Source: a virus. Taken from it: 39,166 nucleotides of DNA. The stretch spans positions 1 to 39,166 of IMG/VR virus record IMGVR_UViG_3300010885_036222, one strand, 5' to 3'. Position numbers and translations under genes: made by a program. Below, one piece after another: positions 1,451 through 21,519 of the stretch (the first letter of the stretch is position 1; each line of letters starts with the position of its first letter). Under the pieces are notes generated by a model. That model was given only the letters and a program-made list of their open reading frames with translations. It was not told the origin of the DNA and did no database searches.

Positions 1451-1979
1451 TGAATTTTTCCTGCATTATTTTAGCGGCGTCTTGATGTGCTTGCTCTAAG
1501 GGATGATTGTCTGGACCGCACAAGTATTTATTCTCCACTGCCCATTGATAAAAACCTCTTGGTTCTTGTGTATTATATGCTTGTTCTTTGGGTGCAGGCG
1601 GGAAGAAGAACCAATTTGAGTAATCCAATCGTCCGGTTACAACACAATTGTCGGCGCAGGTAAACATGTAGCGATACTTGTGGAATTCTAAATACTCTTG
1701 TAAACTTGTGATGTCCCTATCGCTATCCGTTTGATTGTCTCTAGTGGGCCATGTCCAGCACACTATAACCGCTACATCATTCCGCATCCAGTTTAAGTAT
1801 TCACGCACACGAAGACCAATTTCACGGTTGCCTATGCCTGGATAAGCGGCACACACGTAGTTGGTGGCCAACAGGGCAGGGAAGGTACTATGGCTGTAAC
1901 CATCCAGGCCGCCATGCGGACTGTCAGCTAGTTCACTGCCCCATACAAAACTGTCACCGCCCGCGACTACTGTAGTCAT
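1422..1979 (-). CDS. SGNH/GDSL-like hydrolase, second copy, 185 aa
   Basis: MTTVVAGGDSFVWGSEL places a GDS block with Ser10 at the N-terminus. YPGIGNREIG around residues 46-55 resembles block II (Gly with a following Asn). The C-terminal GPDNHPLEQAHQDAAKI supplies Asp157, His159 and His165, closer to the canonical D-x-x-H block than in the downstream paralogue. Both SGNH proteins are 185 aa, share the HPLE-x-x-H motif and flank the 33-codon gene, so they are probably diverged duplicates. A family role in ester hydrolysis or O-acyl transfer is likely; the substrate is unknown. The ATG lies inside the end of the 359-codon gene (26 nt overlap), where a GGAT directly abuts the start, too close to be an efficient ribosome site. 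Coupling to the upstream gene is therefore likely. Confidence 0.62.
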   Translation of the reverse strand: MTTVVAGGDSFVWGSELADSPHGGLDGYSHSTFPALLATNYVCAAYPGIGNREIGLRVREYLNWMRNDVAVIVCWTWPTRDNQTDSDRDITSLQEYLEFHKYRYMFTCADNCVVTGRLDYSNWFFFPPAPKEQAYNTQEPRGFYQWAVENKYLCGPDNHPLEQAHQDAAKIMQEKFNELVKKSIL

Positions 1980-3033
1980 ATCCTGGTTTCAACATTTCAA
2001 TTTGTTGTTGGTAGTAATCTGCGTCTGACCATGTGTAATCATAGGTGCCAATTACCGACCCGGCTTCAATACTATATATGTCGAGATATCTTGATAGTAC
2101 AGGCCAAACTTCAGTGTAGTTGTTGGTACCAAAAGATTTTTGTAGATCAACTTGACCAATCGGGTGGTATCCGTAGTTGTACTGTGGATCTTCCACGTCG
2201 AAGCCGTTGCGCCCAAGCCACTGTCTAAATCCAGCCAACTCTTGGGTGTGCCAAGGATGCGGCCCATTAAATACCACATCCTGCGCCCATTCGATGTCAA
2301 ACTCACCGCTATAGTAACGTAGGTGTGTAATAGCATCACAAGTGGCTGAGTCAATGTCCACTCCCCCTTCGTCTCGATATACTTCATACAGCGTTTTACC
2401 AATCTGTGTCCAATGTAAGTATACCTCGCCGAATCGTCTATCATACTGAGATTCTTTAAAAGTACTTCTATGTAGTTCTGGGAATTCATATCGTGTGGCG
2501 TTTAAGAAAGTTGTGATTTGACTGGGACGTATCCATTGCGGGTCAGTTACCTTTTTGCGTTGACTCAGCATTAGGCTTTCGGCCTCATGACACAGGTTGT
2601 TTAATTGCCGTATGGCAAACTTGGTGTCGTAGTCGGCCTGTCGATACCAATCACTTAGTCCCCACACTGTGCCTTGTAGGTGTTCAAAATGATTGTGCAG
2701 TTGGTTCATTACTTCTTGATCAGGATTAATACCATCGGGTCGCAATGTGGCCGGAGTAAATGTTTCACTGATACGATAGTCTTCGGGTTCAAAGAAACTG
2801 TTGATTTGATCCGTGGCCCATTTCAGCTCTCGACAGATATAATCTAAATCTCTAGGACTGTCAGGAAAACCCAAAAAGCAAAAATTCTTTTCTAGGTAAT
2901 TGTTGTTTGCCAGTAACTGCTGTAGTGCCTGATACCATAGTTGACCCATTGGTGTATCGTAGACGTCAATGTAATATCGTAATTGATCATCTTTGTTTAA
3001 AGGATTTCGTAGGGTTACAGTTACTTGGTCCAT
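1954..3033 (-). CDS. Conserved-looking protein of unknown function, 359 aa
   Basis: I do not recognise a catalytic family. The protein is acidic and aromatic-rich, starts MDQVTVTLRNPLNKDD and has no signal peptide, membrane segment or Cys cluster. A distinctive stretch is MNQLHNHFEHLQGTVWGL around residues 109-126. Tyr- and Trp-rich segments follow, including HPWHTQELAGFRQWLG near residue 265. I believe similar proteins with the HNHFEHLQG motif occur in aquatic phage genomes, but this is memory, not a search. Its ATG overlaps the stop of the 42-codon membrane peptide as TAATG, and its end contains the start of the SGNH gene, so it is embedded in the modification operon between radical-SAM and hydrolase genes. 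It might be a scaffold, a substrate protein or an uncharacterised enzyme. That it is real is supported by length, tight packing and ordinary codon use. Confidence 0.8.
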   Translation of the reverse strand: MDQVTVTLRNPLNKDDQLRYYIDVYDTPMGQLWYQALQQLLANNNYLEKNFCFLGFPDSPRDLDYICRELKWATDQINSFFEPEDYRISETFTPATLRPDGINPDQEVMNQLHNHFEHLQGTVWGLSDWYRQADYDTKFAIRQLNNLCHEAESLMLSQRKKVTDPQWIRPSQITTFLNATRYEFPELHRSTFKESQYDRRFGEVYLHWTQIGKTLYEVYRDEGGVDIDSATCDAITHLRYYSGEFDIEWAQDVVFNGPHPWHTQELAGFRQWLGRNGFDVEDPQYNYGYHPIGQVDLQKSFGTNNYTEVWPVLSRYLDIYSIEAGSVIGTYDYTWSDADYYQQQIEMLKPGYDYSSRGR

Positions 3034-3161
3034 TAAAACAATCCAGGTGGCGGGAGGTCAGATCTTTCATTGGGGTCACACGGCTGATAAAAAATTATCA
3101 CGCCATATGCCACAGCAACCACAATCATACCAATTAAATAAATCATATCGACATCCACCAT
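3033..3161 (-). CDS. Small single-pass membrane peptide, 42 aa
   Basis: This short frame fills the gap between the 430-aa radical-SAM gene and the 359-aa gene. It opens at ATG 3161 and reads MVDVDMIYLIGMIVVAVAYG at the N-terminus, then a short hydrophobic run, then a polar Pro-rich tail ending SDLPPPGLF. Residues 6-25 form one clear transmembrane helix. A good ribosome site, GAGG seven nt before the ATG, lies inside the end of the radical-SAM gene. Another in-frame ATG at residue 6 has no such site, so I prefer the first. The stop overlaps the next ATG (TAATG), which fits coupling. There is no lipobox or signal-peptidase site, so it is not an obvious spanin lipoprotein. Its place inside the enzyme cassette suggests a small membrane anchor or accessory; the function is unknown. 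Confidence 0.6.
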   Translation of the reverse strand: MVDVDMIYLIGMIVVAVAYGVIIFYQPCDPNERSDLPPPGLF

Positions 3162-4435
3162 TTGAGTACCTCTGGACGTTCACTTAATATATCAGTCATT
3201 GTAACGCTTTGAGTACGTATTTGTTCTAATTTTAACACACGAGCCTTGCCACGAGCAACAGCTTTGGCATATTCTTCTGGCCATTGTTCTTGGAAAGTGG
3301 GTCTAGTTTTTAGCTGGACAAGTATATCCCGCAAGGCGCCTCCAGAATGTTGCATCTGGTTGGTAATCTCGTCTATCCAAGGATGTAATACGTCCCGAGG
3401 TAGTGCAAGGGGTGACATAACTATGTCCGGGCTAAAACTAAAAATCACCTTCGCCAGAACTTGTACTCCGTAGGTTGCGGACAGTCTTTCAATACGTTCA
3501 ATCTCAAACAGTCCTGGCAATGTAAGGGTGAAGTCGAGTCGCATCTGGCGACTATGAGTTGCACACGCAACTCCTTGAGTGAAGTTCTCAAGCCATGAAT
3601 CGTAGTCGAGGCCTGTTCTAATGTATTCTCCAATCGCTCCTGTTCCATCGAGGCTCGCGCAGATTTGCCAGTCCCGTAACCCAGGGAGAATATCAGTGTA
3701 AAGATTACAACCGCGATAACTAACGCGGCTAAGATTTGTATTATAACGAGCGTAAACATTTGGGCCGTCTCCTAGTTCTATAATTCGTTTCATATAACGC
3801 CAGTGCTGTTCATACATAAGAGGCTCTCCGCCTACCCAGTATATTTCTTCAACTCTGTGCTCTTCAACGGCCTTTGAGAACTCGGCTTCAATTTGACTCT
3901 CTTGGAATTCCTCTATTTCTTTCTTGACTATAGGAACCATCCAAGCATTTTTTGGATTTGACCACTCGATCATGTTGTGTTGTCGTTGTTCACTCTCCCA
4001 ACTGCTTGACAACATATCTCCACACATCCGGCACTTGAAGTTACATAAATTGCTAAATCTGTAATCCCACGACACCGGCTGTAATGATGTATGCCCACAC
4101 TCATCAGTATTTGACATTGCATAATCATACTTATGTCCAAACAACTGGTTGAAATAACTGCGGTAAACGGAGGTGTTTAGTAATCGATCATTACATACTT
4201 CGCACTCGGGCAATGTTTCCCCCGCCATCATGCGGCGGCGCACAGACCGCATGTGTTCGCCGTTCCAGTGTTCATCTAATGTTATGGGAATATATCGTCC
4301 GGTTCCCGACTCGGTGTCAATGTATTGTTGAAAGTTCTGCGCGGGCTCACGACTTGCACAGCACATACGTCGTTCAGTTTGTGGACTTAGGTATGTGTGC
4401 GTCCACGGTGCCATGCATAAGGTATCGGGTTTCAT
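3143..4435 (-). CDS. Radical-SAM protein with N-terminal twitch/SPASM-like Cys domain, 430 aa
   Basis: The radical-SAM signature is Cys131-x3-Cys135-x2-Cys138 within SNLCNFKCRMCGD, which binds the 4Fe-4S cluster that cleaves S-adenosylmethionine. It is followed by the VGGEPLM motif (GGEP at 202-205), which contacts SAM. Ahead of the barrel is a separate Cys-rich region: CMAPW at residue 7, CC at 25-26 and ECEVC at 78-81. These residues could hold an auxiliary Fe-S cluster, as in SPASM or twitch enzymes, but here the region is N-terminal rather than C-terminal. Relatives with auxiliary clusters modify peptides or dehydrogenate sugars. The ATG overlaps the stop of the neighbouring 416-aa radical-SAM gene (ATGA). 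A different-frame reading at 3445-3759 is treated in the findings. Substrate unknown; fold confidence high. Confidence 0.9.
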   Translation of the reverse strand: MKPDTLCMAPWTHTYLSPQTERRMCCASREPAQNFQQYIDTESGTGRYIPITLDEHWNGEHMRSVRRRMMAGETLPECEVCNDRLLNTSVYRSYFNQLFGHKYDYAMSNTDECGHTSLQPVSWDYRFSNLCNFKCRMCGDMLSSSWESEQRQHNMIEWSNPKNAWMVPIVKKEIEEFQESQIEAEFSKAVEEHRVEEIYWVGGEPLMYEQHWRYMKRIIELGDGPNVYARYNTNLSRVSYRGCNLYTDILPGLRDWQICASLDGTGAIGEYIRTGLDYDSWLENFTQGVACATHSRQMRLDFTLTLPGLFEIERIERLSATYGVQVLAKVIFSFSPDIVMSPLALPRDVLHPWIDEITNQMQHSGGALRDILVQLKTRPTFQEQWPEEYAKAVARGKARVLKLEQIRTQSVTMTDILSERPEVLKWWMSI

Positions 4436-5682
4436 GGATGGTGTCCAGCCAGGTTAAAGGCCGTTAATAGTTGTTGGTAGTCTGCATGTTCGGGATTGTA
4501 GATATTTCTACGATTGAATTCTTCTAAGGGCCATGTACCCCAATTCCACATGCGCTGATAGTATATGGTGTCTATGGACATATCTTGGGCCAACTTACGC
4601 AATAAAGGAATTTCACGATAGTTATCTTCCTGTACAACAAAATCAATTGATACTGTGGTTTTAAGAGCTAGACGTCGTATCTGTTGTTGTACGTGGCGAA
4701 CATTTGCCAATAGGTTTTCCCAGACACCGCCGACTCGAATTCGACTGTAAGTATCTGCGGTGGCAGCATCAAAGCTGATACGTAACTCTTTGACGTGTGG
4801 CAACAACTGTTCTAATAGATCCGATTTGGCAATCAAATAACTTCCATTGGTTTGTATAATGTGTCGAATGTTCTTGCCACTGGCAATACAATACTCCATC
4901 AAGTCTACGTATACTTCGCTAATAAATGGTTCGCCTCCGGCCCAACGAATGTCAACTGGTTGCTGATCTATTTTATCAATTACTAGATGTTTAATTTTGT
5001 CGCTGATGCTGTTGTTAATGGGCCTGATAACATGATGTTTGTTGTTGTTGATCAATTCGGTTCTACAACTGGGACAACGAAAATTACAAGTGTAATCAAA
5101 GTCAAAAATCAAGTTACGTGGTATCTGTGTGACTCGAGTTTGTTCACTGGGTTCGTATGGCAATGGCTGTAGGTCGGCCTCACCGGTTGGTTTGGTCGTG
5201 ATTGAGTTGGCCTTGGGCGCAAGGAAACGACTTATCTTGTGATTGCAGTAGTAATAACGTTGAGCCAGTATCTCTTGTCTAATACGCTGTGCTGTTTCTG
5301 AATTCAATACCGCATACACGTCGTCTGTTTCTAGCAGACTGCCAACAAACTTGGGAACCCAACTGGGGCTTTCGCATATAAACACACTACCATTGGTGTT
5401 GATGCCCATGGTGTTCCACGGCACTCTACAGGCAAACATCTTGGGTGCGTGTTTGTTAAAAAACACCTGTTGCTGACGCTGTTGGTTTGCCTCAGCTTGG
5501 CCATCTCGATCTTGTTCAGCAATCACAGAATAGTTCTGTCGCATCATGGCCACAAACTCTTCAATCTCGTGTGCAACAACTGCGGGCCTACTGCCATTTA
5601 AAAAATCTGAGAAGCTGGGCCAATCGCCGCCTCGAAATGCGCGATATGTTTTCTCATCCACTATTTTACTCAGGTCTGTCAT
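4432..5682 (-). CDS. Radical-SAM protein with N-terminal SPASM-like domain, 416 aa
   Basis: The signature is Cys199-x3-Cys203-x2-Cys206 in DYTCNFRCPSCR, with WAGGEPFI following (GGEP at 249-252). The N-terminal half reads like a SPASM block: FACRVPWNTMGINTNGSV with Cys85, then FICESPSW with Cys103, then a GSL and NSETAQRIR stretch, then YYYCNH with Cys146. Unlike its neighbours it has no C-x-x-C-W pair in this domain. I take ATG 5682 (MTDLSKIVDEKTYRAF) as the start. A longer frame begins at a GTG at 5733, but its extra 17 residues overlap the upstream coding end and look like chance hydrophobics. With ATG 5682 the overlap with the tandem radical-SAM gene is 17 nt. The end overlaps the next ATG by 4 nt. 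Same putative role as its neighbours: SAM-dependent radical chemistry on an unknown substrate. Confidence 0.88.
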   Translation of the reverse strand: MTDLSKIVDEKTYRAFRGGDWPSFSDFLNGSRPAVVAHEIEEFVAMMRQNYSVIAEQDRDGQAEANQQRQQQVFFNKHAPKMFACRVPWNTMGINTNGSVFICESPSWVPKFVGSLLETDDVYAVLNSETAQRIRQEILAQRYYYCNHKISRFLAPKANSITTKPTGEADLQPLPYEPSEQTRVTQIPRNLIFDFDYTCNFRCPSCRTELINNNKHHVIRPINNSISDKIKHLVIDKIDQQPVDIRWAGGEPFISEVYVDLMEYCIASGKNIRHIIQTNGSYLIAKSDLLEQLLPHVKELRISFDAATADTYSRIRVGGVWENLLANVRHVQQQIRRLALKTTVSIDFVVQEDNYREIPLLRKLAQDMSIDTIYYQRMWNWGTWPLEEFNRRNIYNPEHADYQQLLTAFNLAGHHP

Positions 5683-8194
5683 ATCCCATTGCAACAGCAA
5701 TATCAGTATGCGATTGAGCAAAGTCTTCGCCACGGAAGCGGTCGGTGCGTTGCATTTCTTTTAAGAACTGCTCGTTACTCAATGTTTCGCCGTTTTTAAT
5801 GAACTGAATAATCTTATCTATTTCTTTGCGATGGCGTGGAACAAAATCACCTTTGGTTAATCTATCGATTACTAGAGCCTTGGCCTCTTCGGTCATAGCA
5901 CCAATGTACATGTGACGTGGTTCGTGCATCATGTTAAAGTAATCATAATCAAAGTTTTGTTCGATTACCCACTTGCATAAGTCTTCCAAATACAGCACGT
6001 TCTGTACATTGATGGTCATGCAAACTTGTGTCAATAGATTTGGCCAAGTTTTCTTTAGTTCATGGAAGCGATTGATGTTTGCCTGTACTTCAGACCATTG
6101 AGCGCCTGAGCGTTCAAACTCAAAACGTTCTTTGATGTTGTCAATACTAAAGGCAATTTCCACTTTGCGGAACCGCTTCCAGGTTGCAATAAATTCTTCT
6201 GGGAACTGTGTACCGTTGGTGTTGTAGTGTATTTCGATGTTGTCGGCATAACCATTATCAGCGGCAAATTTCAACAAGTCAAAGTGTTCTTGAATCATAA
6301 ACGGCTCTCCGCCTGTGAACTCAAAGTACTTGACATGCGGCAATATGGTCTTTAAGTCAGCCCAAAACTTGTCAGAATTTTCGTTACGTGGCCAATTGCC
6401 CTGCTTGAGCCATGTGTAGGCCACATGCTTTTTAGGATCGCCGCCCCATTCTTTGACATATTCCATTTCTTCTGGAACCCACTTGCTACTTGACCATGAA
6501 CCACAAATACGGCATTTCAAGTTGCAGATATTGCCCAGCTTCAAGTCCAAGAACCATAACTGATTGGGTGTATCGTTTTCCCAATCAACTTCGGCATAGC
6601 GTTCTTTGAAACGTGTAATGGTGTTGATGCGTTTGCTGTTACGTCCAGCATCTTCTTCTTCCCAACAGCGGCTACAGGTAGCTGGCTTATTGCCTTCACG
6701 GAAACTTTTACGTAGATCCTGCATGTATTTGCTGTTGTATATTTCAGTAATGGTATGACGATTCATGTCATACTTTTCACCCGTCTCGTCGGTGATTTCA
6801 TCCACAGCAAGACAGCAAGGGCGGGCACTGCCAATTGGACTAGTTTCCATGCTGACCCAGGGCAACATGCACATGGTCTGTGGTAGTTTGTAATTTTTCA
6901 TTTCGGTCAGTTCAGGGAATACTTCAAAGAAGTTCTCGCCGCGCACTTTATCTATTAGATCGTTGTTCTTGAAGAAGTCTGGCAAGTATGCTGTACTGTC
7001 GTTATGATCCATAAAATTGATCAGGCCCTGATAACCCTGTGTGGCACGTTTTAATGTGTCCAGTGGTTCAAGCCATTCAATGTGTGCTTCAATCTTATCT
7101 CTTGCAAGACGCTTCAAGTTGGCAGGCAATGCATCTACACGATAACGTAGCGGATGTTGCAACATGTTGATGTTCCAGTCCATTGGACGTAGCAAACCCA
7201 GGTCCACCCACTCACGGTGGAAGTCCGGCAGGTGCATGACATTCATTAAACTGGCAGTACTGCTGACGTAGAAGTCGACTTTGGGGCATACCTTGAGCAT
7301 ACGCTCACGATTGGCCACTGTTTGTTTCCAATCCTGTCCTTTACGCATATACTCGCCGCGAGCATAACTGGCATCTAGACTGGCACCAACACTGACACAG
7401 TCAAATAAATTCCATAACTCCATGACGTCTTGACCCTTGTAGGCCATTTCGCTGAAGTTGGTGTTGTAGATCAAGCGCACATGAAACATCTCACGGTCAA
7501 CTAGTTCACGTAGCACACGATAGTGTTCTTCCATGATCAAGGGCTCGCCTCCGGCCCAATATATTTGTTCTAGGTGCGGAATATGCTCTTGCATCTGATC
7601 CCACATGTCATCTTTGTTTTTGCCAGCAAACATGATTTGTGGGTGCTGTGGGTTCCAGCCGGCGGCTTTTTCATCTCGGTACCAGCTGGAACTAAACAGG
7701 CTGCCACAACTACGACAACTGAAGTTACAGATGTTGCTGAAGCGTATGTCATAGTAACGCAATTTAAAATCTTCGTGTGTGCCATCAGGTTTGGTTTCAT
7801 CAACTAAATTGATCAGATGTCCAAAGTTTTTGTTACTGCTGTTACGCATACTGAACAGGCCGCGATCTTCTTGCTCGATACACTTGGTACATTGCTTACA
7901 CGGCTTGTCCTCCATCATGTTGCGGCGCATTTCCTTCATTGGCTCTTGATTCCAAATCTCACGCATGGTATGTGTTTTTAAATTGCCGATGCTGTGATCT
8001 GGATCTCCTAGACAACAGGGATATGCACGACCGTCTGGGAACCCGTGCATATGAATCCAAGGTATCATACAAAAGTTGTCGCTTTTGACAATGCGGTCCC
8101 ATTGATCGGGGCGCATTTCATTTTCTTTGATATAAACAGGCCAACGTGCGCCGTAGTTGTAGTCTTTGTAATAATCGTCAATATCGTTTGCCAT
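5666..8194 (-). CDS. Tandem double radical-SAM fusion protein, 842 aa
   Basis: Two complete modules sit in one chain. Module 1 (about residues 1-430) has CMIPW at 42, CC at 60-61, CKQCTKC at 99-105, then Cys156-x3-Cys160-x2-Cys163 and WAGGEPLI (GGEP 215-218). Module 2 (about 438-842) repeats the order: CMLPW at 442, CC at 460-461, CSRCW at 507-511, then Cys557-x3-Cys561-x2-Cys564 and FTGGEPFM (GGEP 628-631). All seven expected Cys positions are kept in both halves, so neither looks degenerate. I chose ATG 8194 because AAGGA lies a few nt upstream and the ATG overlaps the previous stop (TAATG); a TTG 18 nt earlier has no such support. A fusion could process a substrate in two steps or at two sites. 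The gene overlaps the next radical-SAM gene by 17 nt. The product remains unknown. Confidence 0.9.
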   Translation of the reverse strand: MANDIDDYYKDYNYGARWPVYIKENEMRPDQWDRIVKSDNFCMIPWIHMHGFPDGRAYPCCLGDPDHSIGNLKTHTMREIWNQEPMKEMRRNMMEDKPCKQCTKCIEQEDRGLFSMRNSSNKNFGHLINLVDETKPDGTHEDFKLRYYDIRFSNICNFSCRSCGSLFSSSWYRDEKAAGWNPQHPQIMFAGKNKDDMWDQMQEHIPHLEQIYWAGGEPLIMEEHYRVLRELVDREMFHVRLIYNTNFSEMAYKGQDVMELWNLFDCVSVGASLDASYARGEYMRKGQDWKQTVANRERMLKVCPKVDFYVSSTASLMNVMHLPDFHREWVDLGLLRPMDWNINMLQHPLRYRVDALPANLKRLARDKIEAHIEWLEPLDTLKRATQGYQGLINFMDHNDSTAYLPDFFKNNDLIDKVRGENFFEVFPELTEMKNYKLPQTMCMLPWVSMETSPIGSARPCCLAVDEITDETGEKYDMNRHTITEIYNSKYMQDLRKSFREGNKPATCSRCWEEEDAGRNSKRINTITRFKERYAEVDWENDTPNQLWFLDLKLGNICNLKCRICGSWSSSKWVPEEMEYVKEWGGDPKKHVAYTWLKQGNWPRNENSDKFWADLKTILPHVKYFEFTGGEPFMIQEHFDLLKFAADNGYADNIEIHYNTNGTQFPEEFIATWKRFRKVEIAFSIDNIKERFEFERSGAQWSEVQANINRFHELKKTWPNLLTQVCMTINVQNVLYLEDLCKWVIEQNFDYDYFNMMHEPRHMYIGAMTEEAKALVIDRLTKGDFVPRHRKEIDKIIQFIKNGETLSNEQFLKEMQRTDRFRGEDFAQSHTDIAVAMGYDRPE

Positions 8195-9543
8195 TATAGG
8201 TCCTTGTACCAATCTGCTAAAGCAGGGAATGTTTCTGCAAAGTTTTTATTACGACGCTGGTCGTATTGTGTGTAGAAGTTTTTAAAGTCACGTTGTAATG
8301 TAACTTGTTCCATGGCTTCTGTGTGCGGTTTCATTACTACGTCAATATAGTCAAGCAATCTATCAAGTTGATTCTTTTCGTATTCGTGCATTAGATCAAA
8401 CTTGAGCCAATCGTTGGCAAAACGATAAAGTTTGCCAGCATAGCGTTGTCTAATGTCACGGGGAAGAAGTGTAAGTGATTGAAAACTTGGGAAGCGCAAT
8501 ATATTTAGCGAGAAATTAATAGCGTCCCGACCGTATTCCAGTTTCCAGTTCATGACCATGTCCAGGAAGCTGTCTAAACTATCTAAACACAATGCATTGA
8601 CTGTACACATGACATGCAGGCCACGGAACCGTCCTGAATCCAACAAGCGTTCTACATTGTTGGCCCAGTCGTCAAATACCAGTCCGTCGCGAATGTATTC
8701 TGCTTGCAAGCCCACAGCCTCGTTACTGGTATACAGGTCAACTTCAACTCCATCAACGGCCGCCAGTAAACGGTCAATATCGACCGCGGTGCCCAAGTTG
8801 CTGTTGATGGCAAGTCGGGTAGTACTCTTGCCTCGGTTGGTTTTAAACCAATCAATTAACTTCCAAGTCTCGGCACTCATCAGGGGCTCGCCGCCAGTAA
8901 TACGTAGTTCCTTTAGCGTTTTATGTAGGTCCGTTTCCCACCAGGAGTGGAAGGCCTCCACATAAGGATTAGTCTCACCGAACTTATACAGTTGACTATT
9001 ATCGTGAGCGTGAGTAAAATGATTCCTACCGTCACTAACCAATTGGGTATAGGGTCCATGTTGTTTAATGTCTTTAACCCAAGTGCTACTAAAAGCGGGG
9101 TTGCAGTAACTACAAGCAAACTGGCAAGTGCGGTCAAATGCAATTTCCAGTGTCTGGAGGTTGATGTCTGTGCTGGCTGGTGTTCGTTGTGCATATGCTA
9201 AATCCTCATCCGAATATATAACGGTTTTGTAAACTCTATCACTGATGTTGTCGCGGCCGATGTCTTCGATCTTCCAGCAGTACTCGCAACCTGCTGGACG
9301 CTCGCCTTTTTGCATCTGCTCACGTTCCATTTTCTTTTTGACAGTGTTGTGAATCGCACTGGGATTGGTTCGAATAGCATCCACATCAATGGCATGTGGT
9401 AAGGGATGATGACAACTTGTGGTCTGACCTGATCCTAACCATATGGTGGCATTGTACCACTTGGCTCCACAAAAGCTGGCCGACTTGATGTCAATCACTC
9501 GGCGTTTGTACTCTAAGTCTGTTTCTTTATCTAGTCTAGGCAT
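8194..9543 (-). CDS. Radical-SAM protein, C-x-AKW subtype, 449 aa
   Basis: The core signature is Cys140-x3-Cys144-x2-Cys147 in DRTCQFACSYCNPAFSSTW, followed by ITGGEPLM (GGEP 217-220). The N-terminal region differs from the C-x-x-PW neighbours: FCGAKW with Cys25, then TTSCHHPLPHAIDV with Cys44 and two His, then AGCEYCW with Cys86 and Cys89. The same order occurs in the 461-aa protein encoded two genes upstream (10627-12012), including the HP, IDV and NP-x-A-x-HNT stretches, so the two are close paralogues. The ATG at 9543 overlaps the previous gene by 13 nt. The stop overlaps the ATG of the tandem-fusion gene by one base. Relatives with auxiliary clusters act on peptides or sugars; nothing in the sequence picks the substrate. 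A hydrophobic alternative frame over the Cys motif (8913-9194) is rejected. Confidence 0.9.
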   Translation of the reverse strand: MPRLDKETDLEYKRRVIDIKSASFCGAKWYNATIWLGSGQTTSCHHPLPHAIDVDAIRTNPSAIHNTVKKKMEREQMQKGERPAGCEYCWKIEDIGRDNISDRVYKTVIYSDEDLAYAQRTPASTDINLQTLEIAFDRTCQFACSYCNPAFSSTWVKDIKQHGPYTQLVSDGRNHFTHAHDNSQLYKFGETNPYVEAFHSWWETDLHKTLKELRITGGEPLMSAETWKLIDWFKTNRGKSTTRLAINSNLGTAVDIDRLLAAVDGVEVDLYTSNEAVGLQAEYIRDGLVFDDWANNVERLLDSGRFRGLHVMCTVNALCLDSLDSFLDMVMNWKLEYGRDAINFSLNILRFPSFQSLTLLPRDIRQRYAGKLYRFANDWLKFDLMHEYEKNQLDRLLDYIDVVMKPHTEAMEQVTLQRDFKNFYTQYDQRRNKNFAETFPALADWYKDL

Positions 9544-10643
9544 AATGGTATCTCTATCTTTTTTCTTTTTGCAAACTCATGCATAAAATGTGCCATTTGT
9601 TGATGCATATTTTTGTTAAAAGAGGTATTAGACACCACTGTGGCCAAGGTGTCTAGTCCCCATATATTATATGACTTCATTGCCTCTATTGCGACCAATA
9701 TTTTGTCTTTATAGCGATCTGGCAAAGTTGCCATGCTCTGTGTTACCGGATGTTTGCAATACTCAACACGCCACTCAAAATTTGGTACTGTCAGGAACTC
9801 CTGCATATAGGTGCTGAACTTGTCAAAATCTCTAACAGTGATGCTGGTCATTAGACTATTGACCACTACCTTGAGATTTGCGGGCTTGTTTGCCAGTAGG
9901 TATCTAAAGTTATCATCAAACCAATCAAAGTCAAGTCCGTGTCTTGCAAATTCAGCAATAGATCCAGTGGCATCGATACTCACCACCAACACCACTGTTC
10001 TATACTGTTGGCTTCGTTCAAACAATGCGTCCAACACCGATTTCTTACAACTCAAATTGGTTATCATTTGTAATACGTCTGCTGATACTGCATCAATCAA
10101 TTCAAATGTGCGTTTGTTGACCAGGGGTTCACCACCTATGATGCTCAAACGTTCCACATGTTCAAATGACTTTAGAAAAGCAATATTCTTTTCCATTACA
10201 TTCGGTTCTTTGCGATCCACGTCCCAAAAGTATCTATCACTGAACACACGATAACTTTGTTGGCGCACATCCTGTTCCCATCGACTGCTGAACTTGGGAT
10301 TGCAGTAGGTGCATTGAAAATTGCATTCATTACCAACAGTGACTTGTATTTGTTTGGGTGCCGGGTTGTGTTGGTAGTGTTCAAAGTCAGCAGGATCGAA
10401 TGTTCGTAAATGCCTATGACGCAGGCTCTCACCCCCAGCATGTTCCACAGTCCAGCAATAACTGCAACTGGCGTCTTGTATGCCCCTGAGCATATTCATG
10501 CGCTCTTTGGTCACAAACTCCAACACCTGTTCACCAAACACAGTGGGAGTAGATTTGCAACAACTGTAGGCGTAGTTTGTTTCGAAGCTGACATACAGTT
10601 CGTCCCATTTGGCTGGACAAAATGTATCAGGAATTGATTGCAT
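9531..10643 (-). CDS. Radical-SAM protein, short C-x-AKW subtype, 370 aa
   Basis: Cys107-x3-Cys111-x2-Cys114 in GNECNFQCTYCNPKFSSRW gives the SAM-cleaving cluster site; IIGGEPLV (GGEP 170-173) follows. The N-terminal auxiliary region is compact: TFCPAKW with Cys9, SCCKS with Cys28 and Cys29, and CSYCW with Cys60 and Cys63. It is about 80 residues shorter than its two C-x-AKW relatives. The difference includes the segment between the CC/CHHP position and the C-x-x-C pair and a shorter linker before GGEP. It has Cys-Cys where the relatives have Cys-His-His or Cys-Tyr-His. The start at ATG 10643 lies within the end of the 461-aa gene (17 nt overlap) without a clear ribosome site. Role in the cassette unknown; the fold is clear. 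Confidence 0.9.
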   Translation of the reverse strand: MQSIPDTFCPAKWDELYVSFETNYAYSCCKSTPTVFGEQVLEFVTKERMNMLRGIQDASCSYCWTVEHAGGESLRHRHLRTFDPADFEHYQHNPAPKQIQVTVGNECNFQCTYCNPKFSSRWEQDVRQQSYRVFSDRYFWDVDRKEPNVMEKNIAFLKSFEHVERLSIIGGEPLVNKRTFELIDAVSADVLQMITNLSCKKSVLDALFERSQQYRTVVLVVSIDATGSIAEFARHGLDFDWFDDNFRYLLANKPANLKVVVNSLMTSITVRDFDKFSTYMQEFLTVPNFEWRVEYCKHPVTQSMATLPDRYKDKILVAIEAMKSYNIWGLDTLATVVSNTSFNKNMHQQMAHFMHEFAKRKKIEIPLCLD

Positions 10644-12012
10644 GGTATCTACACTCGTTCCAAAACTCTCGCATCTGTGGGAATGTCTCTAAAAAGTCTG
10701 TCTTGCGTCGTTTATCGTGTTCGTTAAAAAATCTATAAAAATCTGCTCGCGTTGCTGTTAAATATGCAGGATCCAATTGCTGGCCTTCAGCCATCCAGGC
10801 AATGTCACGCCGCATACGCTGTACTTCATAATCTTTGAATCCTTGAAATGGTTGCTCTGGTCGTTCCAAATTCATCTCCATCCAATCAGCAACTCGTTCT
10901 AGTTGTCCCACATATAGTTCAGGTAGTATCTGTAGGCTTTGCCACTGTGGGGTACGCAGTAGTGGGGTATCAAACCAAACACGTTGATATGTTGTACTGT
11001 GTTGACGACGTAGATCCAGTATCCATTCTAACTGTTGCTGTAGGCCCAGTACACTTAGATTATTCATTGTGATAATAAAAGTTAGACTGTTACGATATGG
11101 AATTTCAGTCAAGTAACGTTGCACATTGTGTGCAACTCGTTTGTAGTTTAATCCATTACGAATATATTCTGCGTGTGCCGGGTTACCTGAATCTAAACTC
11201 ACATACTGCATGAAGTGTTCGATTTGTGTTCCACATAACCGCTTGACATAATCTAAATATTTTTCCATCAAGGCGTCTTCCACACTGAAGTTGCTGGTGA
11301 CATTCAAATGCAAATCAGGCTTGGGCAGGGCCAACACATAGTCAAATACTTGATAGGTGTTGCGATCCATCAAGGGCTCGCCGCCGGTCATGCGGAAGTG
11401 TTTTAACTTAGGGTACAGTTCGGGCCACCACTCCCAAAACGCATCAACGTATGGATTAGACTCACGAGCGGGGATAGGTCTTTTACTACCAGTAAAATGT
11501 ACGGGGTCATTATGAGGATTACTGGTGGGAAATGCTCCATACCTAGCAACCTCGTCAGCCCAACTGCTACTAAACTGAGGGCTACAATAACTACACTTAA
11601 GGTTACAAGCGTGATTAAAATTGACTTCCACATAACTTGGAATTGTATCTTCGGATCCTGTAAAATTTTTGATTTCTTCATAGTGTTCGGCTGCCCAGGG
11701 CTCTCCTGATCTATAATGTCTGTCGCTTAGATGCCCGTGTTTCTCAATATTCCAGCAATAACTGCACTCACTAGGTTTTTCGTTACGTAACATGATCGTC
11801 CGCTGTTCTTTTTTGTAAGCGGTGTTGTGTAGTGCGCCGGGATTGGCCTTCAATGGCTCAACATCTATGTGATGTAACGGAGGATGGTAGCACGAATTGT
11901 TAAGACCCGTAGGCAAGTGTAGGCTAACCTGTTGCCATTTGGCAAGGCAAAGCGCAGGGCCCAGTTGTTCTCGCATCTGCTCGGCTGCAGACATGAAGTC
12001 ACTTTTACTCAC
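10627..12012 (-). CDS. Radical-SAM protein, C-x-AKW subtype, 461 aa (GTG start)
   Basis: The signature Cys136-x3-Cys140-x2-Cys143 lies in NHACNLKCSYCSPQFSSSW, followed by MTGGEPLMD (GGEP 210-213). The auxiliary region has LCLAKW with Cys22, NNSCYHPPLHHIDV with Cys41, and CSYCW with Cys83 and Cys86. It is a paralogue of the 449-aa protein at 8194-9543, matching it through the N-terminal domain and the barrel. The frame opens at a GTG (12012) that overlaps the glycosyltransferase stop by 8 nt, with GAGG about 11 nt upstream. An in-frame ATG at residue 7 is the alternative start. This is the first radical-SAM gene reached by transcription from the promoter near 15085. A hydrophobic other-frame reading at 11403-11681 coincides with the Cys motif and is rejected as a by-product of its codons. 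Confidence 0.88.
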   Translation of the reverse strand: MSKSDFMSAAEQMREQLGPALCLAKWQQVSLHLPTGLNNSCYHPPLHHIDVEPLKANPGALHNTAYKKEQRTIMLRNEKPSECSYCWNIEKHGHLSDRHYRSGEPWAAEHYEEIKNFTGSEDTIPSYVEVNFNHACNLKCSYCSPQFSSSWADEVARYGAFPTSNPHNDPVHFTGSKRPIPARESNPYVDAFWEWWPELYPKLKHFRMTGGEPLMDRNTYQVFDYVLALPKPDLHLNVTSNFSVEDALMEKYLDYVKRLCGTQIEHFMQYVSLDSGNPAHAEYIRNGLNYKRVAHNVQRYLTEIPYRNSLTFIITMNNLSVLGLQQQLEWILDLRRQHSTTYQRVWFDTPLLRTPQWQSLQILPELYVGQLERVADWMEMNLERPEQPFQGFKDYEVQRMRRDIAWMAEGQQLDPAYLTATRADFYRFFNEHDKRRKTDFLETFPQMREFWNECRYHAINS

Positions 12013-12904
12013 GTGCCATTATACCTCGATTTTTGAACTGACTCATGTAGTGATGCTTGAAGAATCTGCTTTCTGCAGGATCCATGTCCACAATGGGCAA
12101 GCCCAAGCGTGTGCGTATATGATCGCCATAACTGTGTGCGTCCTCGACTACATCAGTGTACTTTACTTCTGTATCCCAGATCTCTTTGAGTGCATCAAAA
12201 CTCTGTACTTGGGTATAGTCCCAGTCGGTCAACATGCATTTGTATGTGCCGTGTCGTGCGCCCATGATGGCCCACGCACCATGGTCAACATCAGCACCCA
12301 CTGTTTGCCAGATACAAAGGTTATCGTAATTTCTAGATACCACCCGTGATGTGAAATCGGCAAGACTTGGTCTTGCTCCGCGATCTAGGCACATCTTAAC
12401 GCCCTCACGGAATCCGGCACGCCAGGCTTGAAACTCTGATCCGTTGGGGTATGTGGTTGAATAGCAGTCTGCCATGGCCCAGTACCGTGGGTGAAAGCAA
12501 AATTCTACCAAGGTTTCATCGGTGCCATCTGAAGCCTCGTGTGTACGCATGTTGTAAACAAAATCCTTGGTCCAAGAACTGAGTCCACCATTGCCATACA
12601 TCAATCCATTGATATTGTTACGTGCTCGCCATCTAAAAACACAGTCACGATTGTTATCGTCCAGAGCCAACTGCTGATTAAAGAAAACAGCATCGGGTAA
12701 GTTATCACCATCAATAAGGATAAATCTTTCTGTATCTGATGCATCAGCGGCAGCTTTGTGTGCCGCGTCAGAACCCAATACGCCATCAACTCTTTTCGCC
12801 CACGGTACCACGTTCTGTATCTGGATCCAGAATTCTTCTCGTCGGGGTTCGTCATAAGTTAAAAATATACAATCTAAATCTGCTACGTCAACTAATTCTG
12901 TCAT
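12005..12904 (-). CDS. Putative GT-A-type glycosyltransferase, 299 aa
   Basis: After a short N-terminus comes CIFLTYDEPRREEFW, then RFILIDGDNLPD with Asp65-Gly-Asp67. This has the form of the DxD metal and nucleotide-sugar site of GT-A enzymes, at the end of a predicted strand. Downstream are NGLMYGNGGLSSWTKDF (about 99-115), typical of the acceptor-side loop in such proteins, and a C-terminal half without membrane segments. No exact GT family can be assigned by eye; distant resemblance to phage glycosyltransferase-like proteins is my basis. The ATG at 12904 overlaps the 105-aa gene by 17 nt, and the end overlaps the GTG of the first radical-SAM gene. Together with two further GT-like genes it suggests that a sugar is transferred to a virion or cell-surface acceptor. 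The alternative is a non-enzymatic GT-fold protein. Confidence 0.6.
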   Translation of the reverse strand: MTELVDVADLDCIFLTYDEPRREEFWIQIQNVVPWAKRVDGVLGSDAAHKAAADASDTERFILIDGDNLPDAVFFNQQLALDDNNRDCVFRWRARNNINGLMYGNGGLSSWTKDFVYNMRTHEASDGTDETLVEFCFHPRYWAMADCYSTTYPNGSEFQAWRAGFREGVKMCLDRGARPSLADFTSRVVSRNYDNLCIWQTVGADVDHGAWAIMGARHGTYKCMLTDWDYTQVQSFDALKEIWDTEVKYTDVVEDAHSYGDHIRTRLGLPIVDMDPAESRFFKHHYMSQFKNRGIMARE

Positions 12905-13205
12905 AGTATTCTATTTCCGGATATTCATCATCAGCAACCAAATTGGCATGTCCTCGTACTACAGGCACACCTGTATCGCTTTTCTTTAATTGTACACGAA
13001 ATTGGTGCTCTGTGTCAAACTTTAATTGACCCTTGACAACTCGACAATTATAATTTGGTCGTTCATATTGTTCTTTTGATATCACGATGTAATTGCCTGC
13101 CGGATGATTGTGACTACTCATTGAAACGGGTCGACCTGCTGTGTCATAATACAATCGGTATTCTAGTACAATTGGATCAAACTTCTTGTATAACTCGTTG
13201 CTCAT
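12888..13205 (-). CDS. Small protein of unknown function, 105 aa
   Basis: I do not recognise this protein. It starts MSNELYKKFDPIVLEYRLYY and contains GRPVSMSSHNHPAGNYIVIS (about residues 24-43). The rest is a compact, charged, beta-rich-looking sequence without Cys clusters, membrane segments or coiled coil. ATG 13205 is preferred; three codons earlier a TTG is possible, but neither has a clear ribosome site. It lies between two GT-like genes, overlapping the upstream one by 29 nt and the downstream one by 17 nt, so it is co-transcribed and probably coupled. Its size and position suggest a small partner or accessory domain of the glycosyltransferases, which is inference only. Confidence 0.65.
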   Translation of the reverse strand: MSNELYKKFDPIVLEYRLYYDTAGRPVSMSSHNHPAGNYIVISKEQYERPNYNCRVVKGQLKFDTEHQFRVQLKKSDTGVPVVRGHANLVADDEYPEIEYYDRIS

Positions 13206-14025
13206 ATTCTGCAATTAATTCGTCTGTTGCATAACTTTTATCGTAGTAATGAACTGGGTGTATTTGATTAATATTGTTAATACGAATCATGTCTGCATTG
13301 CGTTCATGCACACAATATTCCTGCCATGTTTGATCATCACTCCAGCCTTGTATCCCAGATTTCATATGGACAAAATTGATAAAGTCCATGCCAGGGTTGT
13401 AACAAGCGGTATCCATAATGCTTGACACCAAAGCATAAACCATATCTGTTGTAGCATACTCATCTTCACAGTTCTTAAGTTGTTGTTTAACATCATTCCA
13501 ATTTTCAAATACTTGCCTGGCAAGATCAAAAAACTTTTTGCTGGCCTCACTATATCGCCAATACATTAATCCATTGTAAACATCAGGTAATCGATTGGCG
13601 TCAAATACGTGTCTGTACTTACGCGAGGTACTTAATTCTTGTTTATAATTCCTACACCCATGGCTCAGGCAAACATCATGCAATCTAAATGCTGTTATCC
13701 AGTGACTGATGTCTCTAGTAAACAGTAAATCACTTTCAACTTTGATGGTTTCACGCCAGGGACTCAACCACCAGGTGTGCCATTCTGTGGCAAACGGGCC
13801 TTGGCCTTCAACACTATTTGTTGGGATAATGTGATCAAATACTTGTCGATGTTGATCGGTTACCTGTTGATATGTTGCTTGATCCACAATCACAGCACAA
13901 TTTTTGATCTGCTGTGTTGCTTGTATATTTAGTGCCTGTAGATATGCAAGACGCAGGTAGTCAACATCTGCGGTATTGATTGCTAGGGTTAGGAAACCAG
14001 TGTCGCCGTAGAATTTTCTAGACAT
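13177..14025 (-). CDS. Putative glycosyltransferase (GT-A fold, GT8-like appearance), 282 aa
   Basis: The N-terminus FYGDTGFLTLAINTADVDYL resembles the first strand and loop of nucleotide-sugar transferases. TEWHTWWLSPWRETIKVESD leads into LLF at residues 100-102, so Glu97-Ser-Asp99 occupies the usual DxD position. DVYNGLMYWRYSEASKKFFD (about 154-173) resembles the acceptor or sugar-donor loop of GT8-like proteins. The C-terminal HPVHYYDKS could contribute a metal-binding His. The first acid of the DxD is Glu rather than Asp, so catalytic competence is less certain. The gene overlaps its upstream GT-like neighbour by 37 nt and the small unknown protein by 29 nt. There is no signal peptide, so action is cytoplasmic. 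I infer a sugar-transfer role in the same pathway as the two other GT-like genes. Confidence 0.6.
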   Translation of the reverse strand: MSRKFYGDTGFLTLAINTADVDYLRLAYLQALNIQATQQIKNCAVIVDQATYQQVTDQHRQVFDHIIPTNSVEGQGPFATEWHTWWLSPWRETIKVESDLLFTRDISHWITAFRLHDVCLSHGCRNYKQELSTSRKYRHVFDANRLPDVYNGLMYWRYSEASKKFFDLARQVFENWNDVKQQLKNCEDEYATTDMVYALVSSIMDTACYNPGMDFINFVHMKSGIQGWSDDQTWQEYCVHERNADMIRINNINQIHPVHYYDKSYATDELIAEYEQRVIQEV

Positions 14026-14807
14026 TGATCTACTAGTAGTAGAAGGGCGGGACTTGTGAGCCAGGATTTTGACATGATGTGAAGGTTTGCCAAAGGCAGC
14101 ACGTGGCCTTTATGGGGTGTACGGAGAACCAAGTTCTTGGACGCGGTGATCGATTCAACCGCTCCAGTAACCGTAAGAATATGAAATGGTGCAAAACTCT
14201 CTGTAGCCAAACTATTTCCATTGAGTATATAGTGTGCGATAGCAAAGGCATAGTCGTTCCGAAAGTTGCCTTCTTGAACATTGTATAATAATCGGTAGTA
14301 ATCATAATTGCGTTTTATTTTTGCCACCAGTTCAAAAAATAATCTTGACCGTTCGGTTTTTCTAAACAGGAACGCGGTGGCCCAAATATAGGGCAAACTG
14401 TGCGGGCCCATGGTGCTGGCCTGCTGGTCAATATTCACATACCGATTTTTGTCGAATAGCAAATAATCGAACGAGCACTCAAATAGGCCGAGTAGACTAT
14501 TGTCAAATACAAGATAATCGGCGTCAAGGACGATAGTCTCATCATAAGGGCTTGCTTCATATGCTTCATGTCTTCCAAAGTTTTTCCATTCTACAAATCG
14601 ACCTGTGTCGGTACTGAATCGTTGATTACTACCAGTGTCTTTTGCACTTACTATTGTTGTTGGTAATTTTAAAAAATGTTCAATTAGCCTGGCATTTTGT
14701 TCTGCAATACTCACGTAATCGGTTTCGGCTGTGTTGGTTGCAAAGATTACAACACCTCTAGACTTTTCGGATTTTGCGGAGTTCTGCATGTTGTTGATGC
14801 CATTCAT
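13989..14807 (-). CDS. Putative glycosyltransferase with DxD motif, 272 aa
   Basis: RGVVIFATNTAETDYVSIA (about residues 17-35) forms the first strand of a Rossmann-like GT-A domain. YDETIVLDADYLVFD has Asp95-Ala-Asp97 as a clear DxD motif. SLPYIWATAFLFRKTERSRL further on resembles the region that closes the donor site. This is the best DxD match of the three GT-like genes. The start is uncertain: ATG 14807 gives a 50-nt overlap with the upstream gene, and an in-frame ATG at residue 7 gives 32 nt; neither has a good ribosome site, and the conserved part begins only near residue 17. The upstream neighbour is the small gene directly behind the operon promoter, so this is the first enzyme of the cassette. 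Donor and acceptor are unknown. Confidence 0.65.
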   Translation of the reverse strand: MNGINNMQNSAKSEKSRGVVIFATNTAETDYVSIAEQNARLIEHFLKLPTTIVSAKDTGSNQRFSTDTGRFVEWKNFGRHEAYEASPYDETIVLDADYLVFDNSLLGLFECSFDYLLFDKNRYVNIDQQASTMGPHSLPYIWATAFLFRKTERSRLFFELVAKIKRNYDYYRLLYNVQEGNFRNDYAFAIAHYILNGNSLATESFAPFHILTVTGAVESITASKNLVLRTPHKGHVLPLANLHIMSKSWLTSPALLLLVDQCLENSTATLVS

Positions 14808-15072
14808 TCATCACACGGTGGTAATGTTGTTGTGCTGTTACTAAAAATACTTGTCGATCTATTTCAATTGGATTTTGATACACATCTTCCATGTACAGGG
14901 TATCAATTGGCCAACCCTGTACAAATGCAATCAGTTCGGGGTTGATTCGAAACATACCACCGTTGTGTGTCATGTGCAAATCGGTTTGAATTTTTTCACG
15001 CAAGATTTGTCGGTTCACATTGAAGTCTGTGGCCAAACGAACTTGCTCTACAATTTTGGGTAGGTCACTCAT
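14758..15072 (-). CDS. Small alpha-helical protein of unknown function, first gene of the modification operon, 104 aa
   Basis: The protein starts MSDLPKIVEQVRLATDFNVN and contains KIQTDLHMTHNGGMFRI, then DVYQNPIEIDRQVFLVTAQQ, and ends in a basic helix HAELRKIRKV. No catalytic motif, Cys cluster or membrane segment is visible. I have the impression that similar short proteins occur beside fibre genes in aquatic phage genomes, but I cannot name a role. The start matters here: the -10 box TATAAT lies only six nt before ATG 15072, so a transcript from it would begin at or within a base or two of the start codon. A TTG at 15090 would extend the frame through the promoter and is unlikely. There is no Shine-Dalgarno. 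It could be a regulator or a helper of the enzymes that follow. Confidence 0.7.
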   Translation of the reverse strand: MSDLPKIVEQVRLATDFNVNRQILREKIQTDLHMTHNGGMFRINPELIAFVQGWPIDTLYMEDVYQNPIEIDRQVFLVTAQQHYHRVMNEWHQQHAELRKIRKV

Positions 15073-15078
15073 GCTGTT

Positions 15079-15087
15079 ATTATAGCA
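15079..15087 (-). promoter_or_regulatory. Extended -10 sigma70-type promoter for the modification cassette
   Basis: On the minus strand the sequence TGCTATAAT is a perfect TATAAT with an upstream TG one base away, the extended -10 form. A weak -35 (TTTATT) lies 17 nt upstream, overlapping the T-run of the terminator. The promoter is placed between the end of the fibre operon and the first cassette gene. It implies that the cassette is transcribed separately, by host-type RNA polymerase. Predicted initiation is at or next to ATG 15072. Confidence 0.6.
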
Positions 15088-15101
15088 CAACTACCGATAA
15101 A

Positions 15102-20145: not shown

Positions 20146-21519
20146 TTAAAAAGTCTGCTTCCAGGTGGTGGAATCCACTTTGGTCCAAATTGCTCGGACG
20201 TTGCTCCAGGTATTTGTGGCAGTTTTTACCTTTACATTGGCTAGATAGCTCCAGTTATTTGCGGCGGTTTTAACAGTTGTTCCGCCACTAGAGACCATTT
20301 GATAAACTACATTGCCCCAAGGAACACCTACCCCAGTAATCGGATCCCAATTGGAACTGGCGGCGTACCCATTTAGATATGTTGTTGTAGCATTATTTCC
20401 TGAGGTAATATCATAGTACGCATTTAAGTTTCCATACAAAATAGGATGTATAGCATTGGGTATAGGCCTGCGGCCGCCATTTAACGACATAAACCTAGCA
20501 AACATACCAGCCATAATCGGGGCCGACGCACTAGTGCCGCCACCAAATTGATTTATAACATTACCATACCAAAGTCCATAAGAATTCATTGGTGCCGCAA
20601 TGTCTGGAACTCCTCTATTAGATAGACTAGTTACCGGACCAACTGTTGAATTAGATTTAAAATATCTCTGATAAGTTAAGTTTGATTGCCAAGTTGGTAA
20701 ACTGATAAATGTACTGATTCCACCGCCGCTACCGTATCCATTGGCATAACTGAAAATTGGATCTAAATTTTCAACTGTTTCGCTAGATCTTACATTCCCA
20801 GTAGTTACAATTAAATTTGTTCCACCAACAGCGATCACGTTAGAACTTGTGGCAGGGTATACCGCAGTTTCAATATTTGCCGACAAACTAAAAATACTAC
20901 CATAATCCCCCGAACTAGCAAAAACAGAAATTCCTTTTGCAGATGCGGCAGCGAGAGGTCCTGCTAAAAAATCCCCACAATAATAATTTGGATAGACATT
21001 ACTAAGAATTTCTCCGCTAGCCCAACTTATGCTAATAATATCACACTCTTCATCGACAGCTCGTGTAATTAAATTTCCAAAACTTGTATTATTATTAAGA
21101 CTTGCCGCTGTGGTAGCGTTTGTGGTGTAGTTAATACCATCATTTCTACCAATGTAAAGTACTATGTTGGCACTTGGAGCCAACCCTGCCACACAATATA
21201 AATCTAGGGTATTTTCAAAACTATAGAGTCCTGGTGTTGTTTGAGAATTACCGTTAAAGTTATTTGAAGCACCATCAACTAATACTGTAGTAATAGTAGG
21301 AGTTGTTAATCCCATGTTAGACATAGAATTTGCCAAATCCCCCTGCCACCATCCGCCTCCAAGACTAATAATACCAACTTTTACATTTGCCCCTGTGCTA
21401 CTTGGCATATTATATGCCGTGGCAATTTTCAACGGCGTAAGTCTACCATCTTGATTAATGTTTGTGGCTTCAGGAATTGGTATTACTGAAGATATCAACG
21501 GGCGAGGGTAATCTGTCAT
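20146..21519 (-). CDS. Sedolisin-like serine-carboxyl peptidase (S53) with adhesin-type C-terminal module, 457 aa
   Basis: The S53 residues are all present in order. SFENTLDLY gives Glu102 and Asp106, the E-x3-D pair. ASSGDYG gives the oxyanion Asp205. GGTSASAP gives the nucleophile Ser330. YDITSG (Asp370, Ile371) and WDPITGVGVPWG (Asp392) form the C-terminal calcium site. The chain starts at the LTPLKIATAYNMP segment that normally begins the mature enzyme, so no large propeptide is present, and there is no signal peptide. Residues from about 415 form a tail with VKTAANNWSYLANVKVKTA and TWSNVRAIWTKV, like the end of the glycine-rich adhesin. I infer a virion-bound protease that cuts a surface protein of the host or matures fibres. 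ATG 21519 follows the upstream fibre stop by 3 nt without a strong ribosome site. Function not shown; the fold assignment is strong. Confidence 0.88.
   Translation of the reverse strand: MTDYPRPLISSVIPIPEATNINQDGRLTPLKIATAYNMPSSTGANVKVGIISLGGGWWQGDLANSMSNMGLTTPTITTVLVDGASNNFNGNSQTTPGLYSFENTLDLYCVAGLAPSANIVLYIGRNDGINYTTNATTAASLNNNTSFGNLITRAVDEECDIISISWASGEILSNVYPNYYCGDFLAGPLAAASAKGISVFASSGDYGSIFSLSANIETAVYPATSSNVIAVGGTNLIVTTGNVRSSETVENLDPIFSYANGYGSGGGISTFISLPTWQSNLTYQRYFKSNSTVGPVTSLSNRGVPDIAAPMNSYGLWYGNVINQFGGGTSASAPIMAGMFARFMSLNGGRRPIPNAIHPILYGNLNAYYDITSGNNATTTYLNGYAASSNWDPITGVGVPWGNVVYQMVSSGGTTVKTAANNWSYLANVKVKTATNTWSNVRAIWTKVDSTTWKQTF

Follow-up and report, generated by a model that had tools for sequence, protein, structure and literature searches.

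An ordered set of radical-SAM enzymes is carried by many uncultured freshwater and marine phages, and the viral DNA described here holds an expanded example of it. The window, meaning the whole linear viral fragment of 39,166 nt (39 kb) that was analysed, contains six overlapping minus-strand open reading frames at positions 3143–12012, which together encode seven radical-SAM modules. This array consists of a core of five enzyme classes, A to E (C and D share a single fused gene), and of accessory modules F and I. Among 117 non-redundant viral loci in the combined set, 87 have all five core classes; these loci share descent, so that such counts, and likewise those of gene order and genome co-occurrence, are not independent. 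The array is ordinary in its family and unusual in its organisation. The genes around it point to the radical modification of a glycan that the neighbouring genes assemble, a reading to which we give an even chance of being correct.

Organisation of the array

An earlier note, made from the letters of this DNA alone, had described six adjacent genes with seven radical-SAM modules, and both the open reading frames and matches to the NF033640 model (N-terminal twitch radical SAM) bear it out. All seven modules match this model, at about 97 to 400 bits, and six exceed its cutoff of 170 bits, so the match of the array is not a product of chance; module I falls below. The motifs CX3CX2C and GGEP, which the note had reported for every module, are indeed found in all seven. 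With translation from the probable ATG codons at 8194 and 5682, the junctions overlap by 4, 17, 1, 13, and 17 nt, which agrees with the head-to-tail overlaps of 1–17 nt that had been noted.

The order of modules is A-F-B-(C=D)-I-E, all on the minus strand. Class A (10627–12012; 303 bits) has 461 aa when read from the GTG at 12012, and an ATG at 11994 is also possible. It is followed by accessory class F (9531–10643, 370 aa; 192 bits), which has 7 members in 7 loci, and by class B (8194–9543, 449 aa; 291 bits). The fused gene for classes C and D probably starts at the ATG at 8194 and extends over 5666–8194; the mechanical 848-aa reading frame (5666–8212) begins at 8212. Its two modules, the class C part at about 6893–8095 and the class D part at about 5669–6895, score 400 and 341 bits, and they are separate genes in most relatives. 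Accessory class I (4432–5682, from the likely ATG at 5682 in a reading frame that extends to 5733) scores about 97 bits against the cutoff of 170 and, judged by that score, is a relative only. Class E (3143–4435, 430 aa; 283 bits) completes the array and has chromosomal orthologues. In an alignment of the modules, identity to the first ranges from 19 to 28%, which marks them as old paralogues and not recent copies, and no stretch across all seven was conserved enough for a joint search.

The source is a large phage, probably a jumbo phage. The baseplate protein of the window is closest to those of the jumbo myophages Atu_ph07, Phosso, GAP32, and PA5oct, and related contigs reach 374 kb. The tail region also includes a single reading frame of 4133 aa (24561–36962), located between a baseplate wedge gene and tail-fibre genes. 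Among the tail genes there is a 457-aa protein (20146–21519) with a GGTSASAP motif, which resembles serine peptidases of the S53/subtilisin type and has no match in PHROGs.

A conserved core across viral loci

Related loci were gathered with three baits: the 848-aa protein, the neighbouring protein GT299, and class C. A tree of 345 modules separates the five large classes and many small ones. The order is ABCDE in 73 of the 87 loci with the full core and ABCED in 9. Of these full arrays, 56 consist of five N-twitch modules; 22 have six, 8 have seven, and one has eight. Transferase-like, SGNH, and other radical-SAM genes are inserted inside arrays; accessory B12-binding radical-SAM proteins, for example at L019:5733–7232, interrupt several of them. 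A comparison of gene neighbourhoods among viral homologues, which the earlier note had proposed as a check, revealed a conserved block next to tail genes. The array is not unique, given the number of full-core loci; in addition, two papers describe phages with multiple radical-SAM genes (PMC5332604) and radical-SAM cassettes in a phage host-recognition region (PMC7029224).

Neighbouring genes

The block usually runs tail fibre, tail328, s105, GT8, GT8, s119, GT299, and then the array, followed by a 360-aa protein, two SGNH genes, a carbamoyltransferase, a kinase/nucleotidyltransferase, and more transferase-like genes. The earlier note had seen no pathway partner; in most relatives, the array is flanked by GT8-like and GT2-like glycosyltransferase genes and, at its opposite end, by SGNH and carbamoyltransferase genes.

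In the window all of these neighbours are on the minus strand. Directly upstream of the array is the GT2-like protein GT299 (12005–12904), with weak Pfam matches of the GT2 type in 14 of 23 members (best 0.0012). Beyond it are the small conserved protein s119 (12888–13214; 108 aa here, present in 67 of 78 loci), two GT8-like glycosyltransferases (13177–14025 and 13989–14807), whose common profile matches the solved GT8 enzyme glycogenin (E 5e-7 across some 110 residues), and a second small conserved protein, s105 (14758–15090; 110 aa here, 72 of 78 loci). Neither s119 nor s105 matches a family. On the other side, the conserved protein of 360 aa that follows class E (1954–3033; 40 loci) was modelled with a pLDDT of 89. 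Its model suggests a weak cyclophilin-like barrel with a helical insertion (best Z about 8), a resemblance too weak to name it a PPIase, and Foldseek returned no significant match for it. SGNH-like hydrolase 1 (1422–1979) is assigned by sequence resemblance within a cluster of 5 and has no library match, and SGNH-like hydrolase 2 (795–1352) belongs to the family of L002:15704–16330 (Pfam GDSL, E 5e-4). The contig end cuts a carbamoyltransferase of the NodU/CmcH type, of which the 5' part (1–829) remains. It clusters with L002:16296–17783, which matches Pfam Carbam_trans_C at E 2e-46. The likeness to NodU-type enzymes extends to both Pfam carbamoyltransferase domains, but this homologue scores 136 bits against the NF041651 cutoff of 1000, which makes it a relative and not NodU proper. 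An APS-kinase-like N-terminus within the block is backed by Pfam. The labels ‘GT10’, sulfotransferase, and amidinotransferase given to other accessory genes are leads only, and profile searches of the PDB were uninformative for the ‘GT10’ group, as they were for s119, GT299, and the 360-aa protein.

The association of glycosyltransferases with the array is close to constant. Among 107 viral loci with GT299, a GT8 gene is within five genes upstream in 105 and class A is within eight genes downstream in 102. GT299 and the carbamoyltransferase are both in view in 59 of the 87 full arrays. Because the GT299 and class C baits recover one another, the link does not stem from a single bait. A tblastn search of cultured phages found no relative of GT299.

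Cluster cysteines, selection, and fold

Three core and four twitch cysteines are invariant in every core class (A, 71/71; B, 66/66; C, 62/62; D, 59/59; E, 49/49). The CX3CX2C motif and four N-terminal auxiliary-cluster cysteines are present throughout classes A to F, H, and J. At least the core classes and F, and thus six of the seven window modules, are accordingly predicted from their residues to bind one auxiliary cluster besides the SAM cluster. In class I, the window module and its two relatives have three twitch cysteines and lack the fourth. The earlier description of the modules as diverged auxiliary-cluster enzymes is upheld, with the missing cysteine of module I as a refinement. A comparison of the window with L002 gave dN/dS ratios of 0.045–0.067 for A, B, C=D, and E, values that are rough at the high dS found here. 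Together with the invariant cysteines, these low ratios indicate enzymes under strong purifying selection.

The structure model of class C (pLDDT 89) resembles SuiB, BlsE, SkfB, DesII, and anSME, with Z of about 12. The peptide enzymes SuiB, SkfB, and anSME rank level with BlsE and DesII, so that the best folds include both peptide enzymes and enzymes of sugars and nucleotides, and the fold does not pick the substrate.

Several known identities were considered. Assignment as SPASM peptide maturases was rejected, given that the auxiliary cysteines are N-terminal and that no further conserved set follows the core in A to E. Scores exclude prokaryotic viperin (best 51.5 bits against the NF038283 cutoff of 180), the heme b synthase AhbD (20.5 bits, the best among the matches listed, against the TIGR04545 cutoff of 500), QueE, and MoaA. 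Some of the 261 ‘ahbD’ auxiliary genes reported from Baltic Sea viromes, whose function is doubtful (PMC9301287), may be mislabelled N-twitch proteins. Searches of cultured phages by tblastn gave weak radical-SAM relatives at 21–28% identity and nothing closer. Six modules match NF033640 over its full length, with N-terminal auxiliary cysteines and a radical-SAM core; however, the model defines a subfamily to which no reaction is attached, and it does not describe an ordered five-class core.

Bacterial relatives

Strong NF033640 matches are present in 73 of 241 sampled genomes of the Bdellovibrionota, the phylum of the bacterial locus L114, and many of these genomes have several. Counted as N-twitch radical-SAM candidates, many genomes in the set G001–G244 have several to dozens. 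A second radical-SAM type, the rSAM25 group, is beside N-twitch genes in 14 of 20 loci (L211–L230). Phage classes group with chromosomal sequences from this phylum with support of 0.997 for A, 0.905 to 1.0 for B, 0.939 for D, and 1.0 for E; the tree does not resolve the placement of class C. Of the 241 genomes, 9 have class E and 14 have class B; 7 genomes have both, where about 0.5 would be expected (hypergeometric p about 1e-8, phylogeny ignored). Class A, for which the effective boundary is looser, coincides with class E in only 3 genomes, and a complete bacterial set is accordingly rare.

The glycan link extends to some of these chromosomes. Relatives of GT299/GT18 occur at 7 of 20 bacterial N-twitch loci in the Bdellovibrionota, and GT2 domains occur in 11 of 150 neighbours of bacterial N-twitch loci compared with no more than 1 of 150 in control regions, which were drawn from some of the same genomes (Fisher p 0.005). 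In contrast, orthologous core groups with the orders B-E-D-B, C-E-D, and E-D sit among housekeeping genes, without transferases. The neighbourhood of the Bacteriovoracaceae locus L114 suggests no glycan link, and wider sampling places that link at other bacterial N-twitch loci, not at core E-D groups. In bacterial groups, as in the marine phage order ABCED, E and D are adjacent, and this arrangement may have come first. A divergent class E gene (L249:9664–10908) lies, by eye and in one genome, between glmU- and glmS-like genes, which would fit an amino-sugar substrate. In Paenibacillus (L117), a lone class C-like gene is beside acyl-carrier-, ligase-, SDR-, and ketosynthase-like genes, again by eye.

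Possible roles of the array

Five fixed, diverged, and constrained classes imply five distinct jobs, and the suggestion in the earlier note of several substrates or sequential steps is likely to be right. Twitch and SPASM enzymes cleave SAM at the core cluster and take a hydrogen atom from the bound substrate, and their auxiliary cluster takes or gives an electron or binds the substrate. Each array enzyme should work in this way, with SAM cleavage at its core cluster, hydrogen abstraction, and help from its auxiliary cluster. The five core enzymes would then perform different radical C-H steps on a glycan, or a glycan precursor, made by the neighbouring transferases. These steps might be oxidation, epimerisation, or deoxygenation of the type carried out by BtrN, HygY, and NeoN, which are named among the radical-SAM enzymes that act on sugars or aminocyclitols (PMC10991966). 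Differences in the product from phage to phage would come from the accessory radical-SAM, SGNH, and transferase genes that are interspersed with the core. The likely function is to decorate either the surface of the host, so as to block superinfection, or the tail fibres of the phage itself; the block adjoins tail genes, and for pelagimyophages a change of the host O-chain has been proposed (PMC7029224). DesII and BlsE also act on such substrates and are among the best folds. Characterised sugar-acting enzymes are single pathway enzymes, whereas the array is a five-class set. Where known, their auxiliary domain is C-terminal, and in the array modules it is N-terminal.

A glycan is the most economical substrate because of the neighbouring genes: the linkage of GT8, GT299, and class A is near-constant in viral loci, and GT299/GT18 relatives and GT2 domains recur beside chromosomal N-twitch genes. 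The sugar-acting BlsE and DesII among the closest folds add to this, although the equal ranking of the peptide-modifying SuiB, SkfB, and anSME counts against it. Those peptide enzymes instead favour the maturation of a phage protein (s105, s119, or a tail fibre), as SPASM/twitch maturases act on RiPP precursors. The small, conserved, and adjacent s105 and s119, and the position of the array after tail genes, would suit such a role. However, 338 of 374 radical-SAM junctions are at most 30 nt, which leaves little room for a precursor gene, although short open reading frames are present in the few larger gaps and a precursor may lie farther away or be s105 or s119. Furthermore, s119 was not detected in marine ABCED loci, neither small protein is in view at the chromosomal core groups, and the modules start directly with the twitch domain, with no leader-binding domain apparent. 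Protein maturation is thus a minority possibility.

The main tension for the glycan reading comes from bacterial core groups without transferases, since the core may then act on a common metabolite. The enzymes would convert a small molecule, lipid, or cofactor of the cell, with the glycan genes as mere neighbours in a hypervariable phage region. The stand-alone bacterial groups and the single Paenibacillus copy agree with this; the near-universal adjacency of GT299 in phages, and its relatives next to chromosomal N-twitch genes, do not, and we regard such a role as unlikely. Hypermodification of a base in the phage genome by radical-SAM enzymes, transferases, and the carbamoyltransferase is very improbable. 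Carbamoyl- and glycosyltransferases are known from phage DNA-modification pathways, but the genes here are in the tail region with SGNH hydrolases, and a base-modifying enzyme was not recognised within the 39-kb window.

Relation to published phages and significance

T4-like marine genomes with up to 12 radical-SAM genes have been reported and interpreted in terms of Fe-S metabolism (PMC5332604). They resemble this phage in having many such genes, but in the accessible text of that paper these are treated as Fe-S proteins, without a proposal on arrangement or pathway. The host-recognition regions of pelagimyophages differ by radical-SAM cassettes, for which a change of the host O-chain against superinfection was proposed (PMC7029224). 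As here, these genes are near tail fibres and glycosyltransferases and vary between phages, whereas the available portion of that account does not describe an ordered core, assign classes, or mention a bacterial counterpart. In Tasman Sea phages, radical-SAM and glycosyltransferase genes are both enriched (PMC7150976). No description of an ordered five-class core, or of its counterpart in the Bdellovibrionota, was found in the literature searched, which lay mostly outside subscription journals and preprints.

Modification of a glycan by the array can be extended, tentatively and with some doubt, to a pathway of five radical-SAM enzymes that jumbo phages, marine phages, and some Bdellovibrionota would have inherited as a unit. 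Its product would be a radical-modified glycan, or another structure of the cell surface, not described so far, and accessory radical-SAM enzymes would add variable tailoring steps. Should the five classes work one after another, the resulting radical-SAM pathway would be unusually rich by viral standards; it would be present in many uncultured phages and common to a phylum that includes predatory bacteria. A large, functionally unassigned radical-SAM family would become a testable pathway with defined partners, and there would be a biochemical reason for the radical-SAM cassettes seen in phage host-recognition regions.
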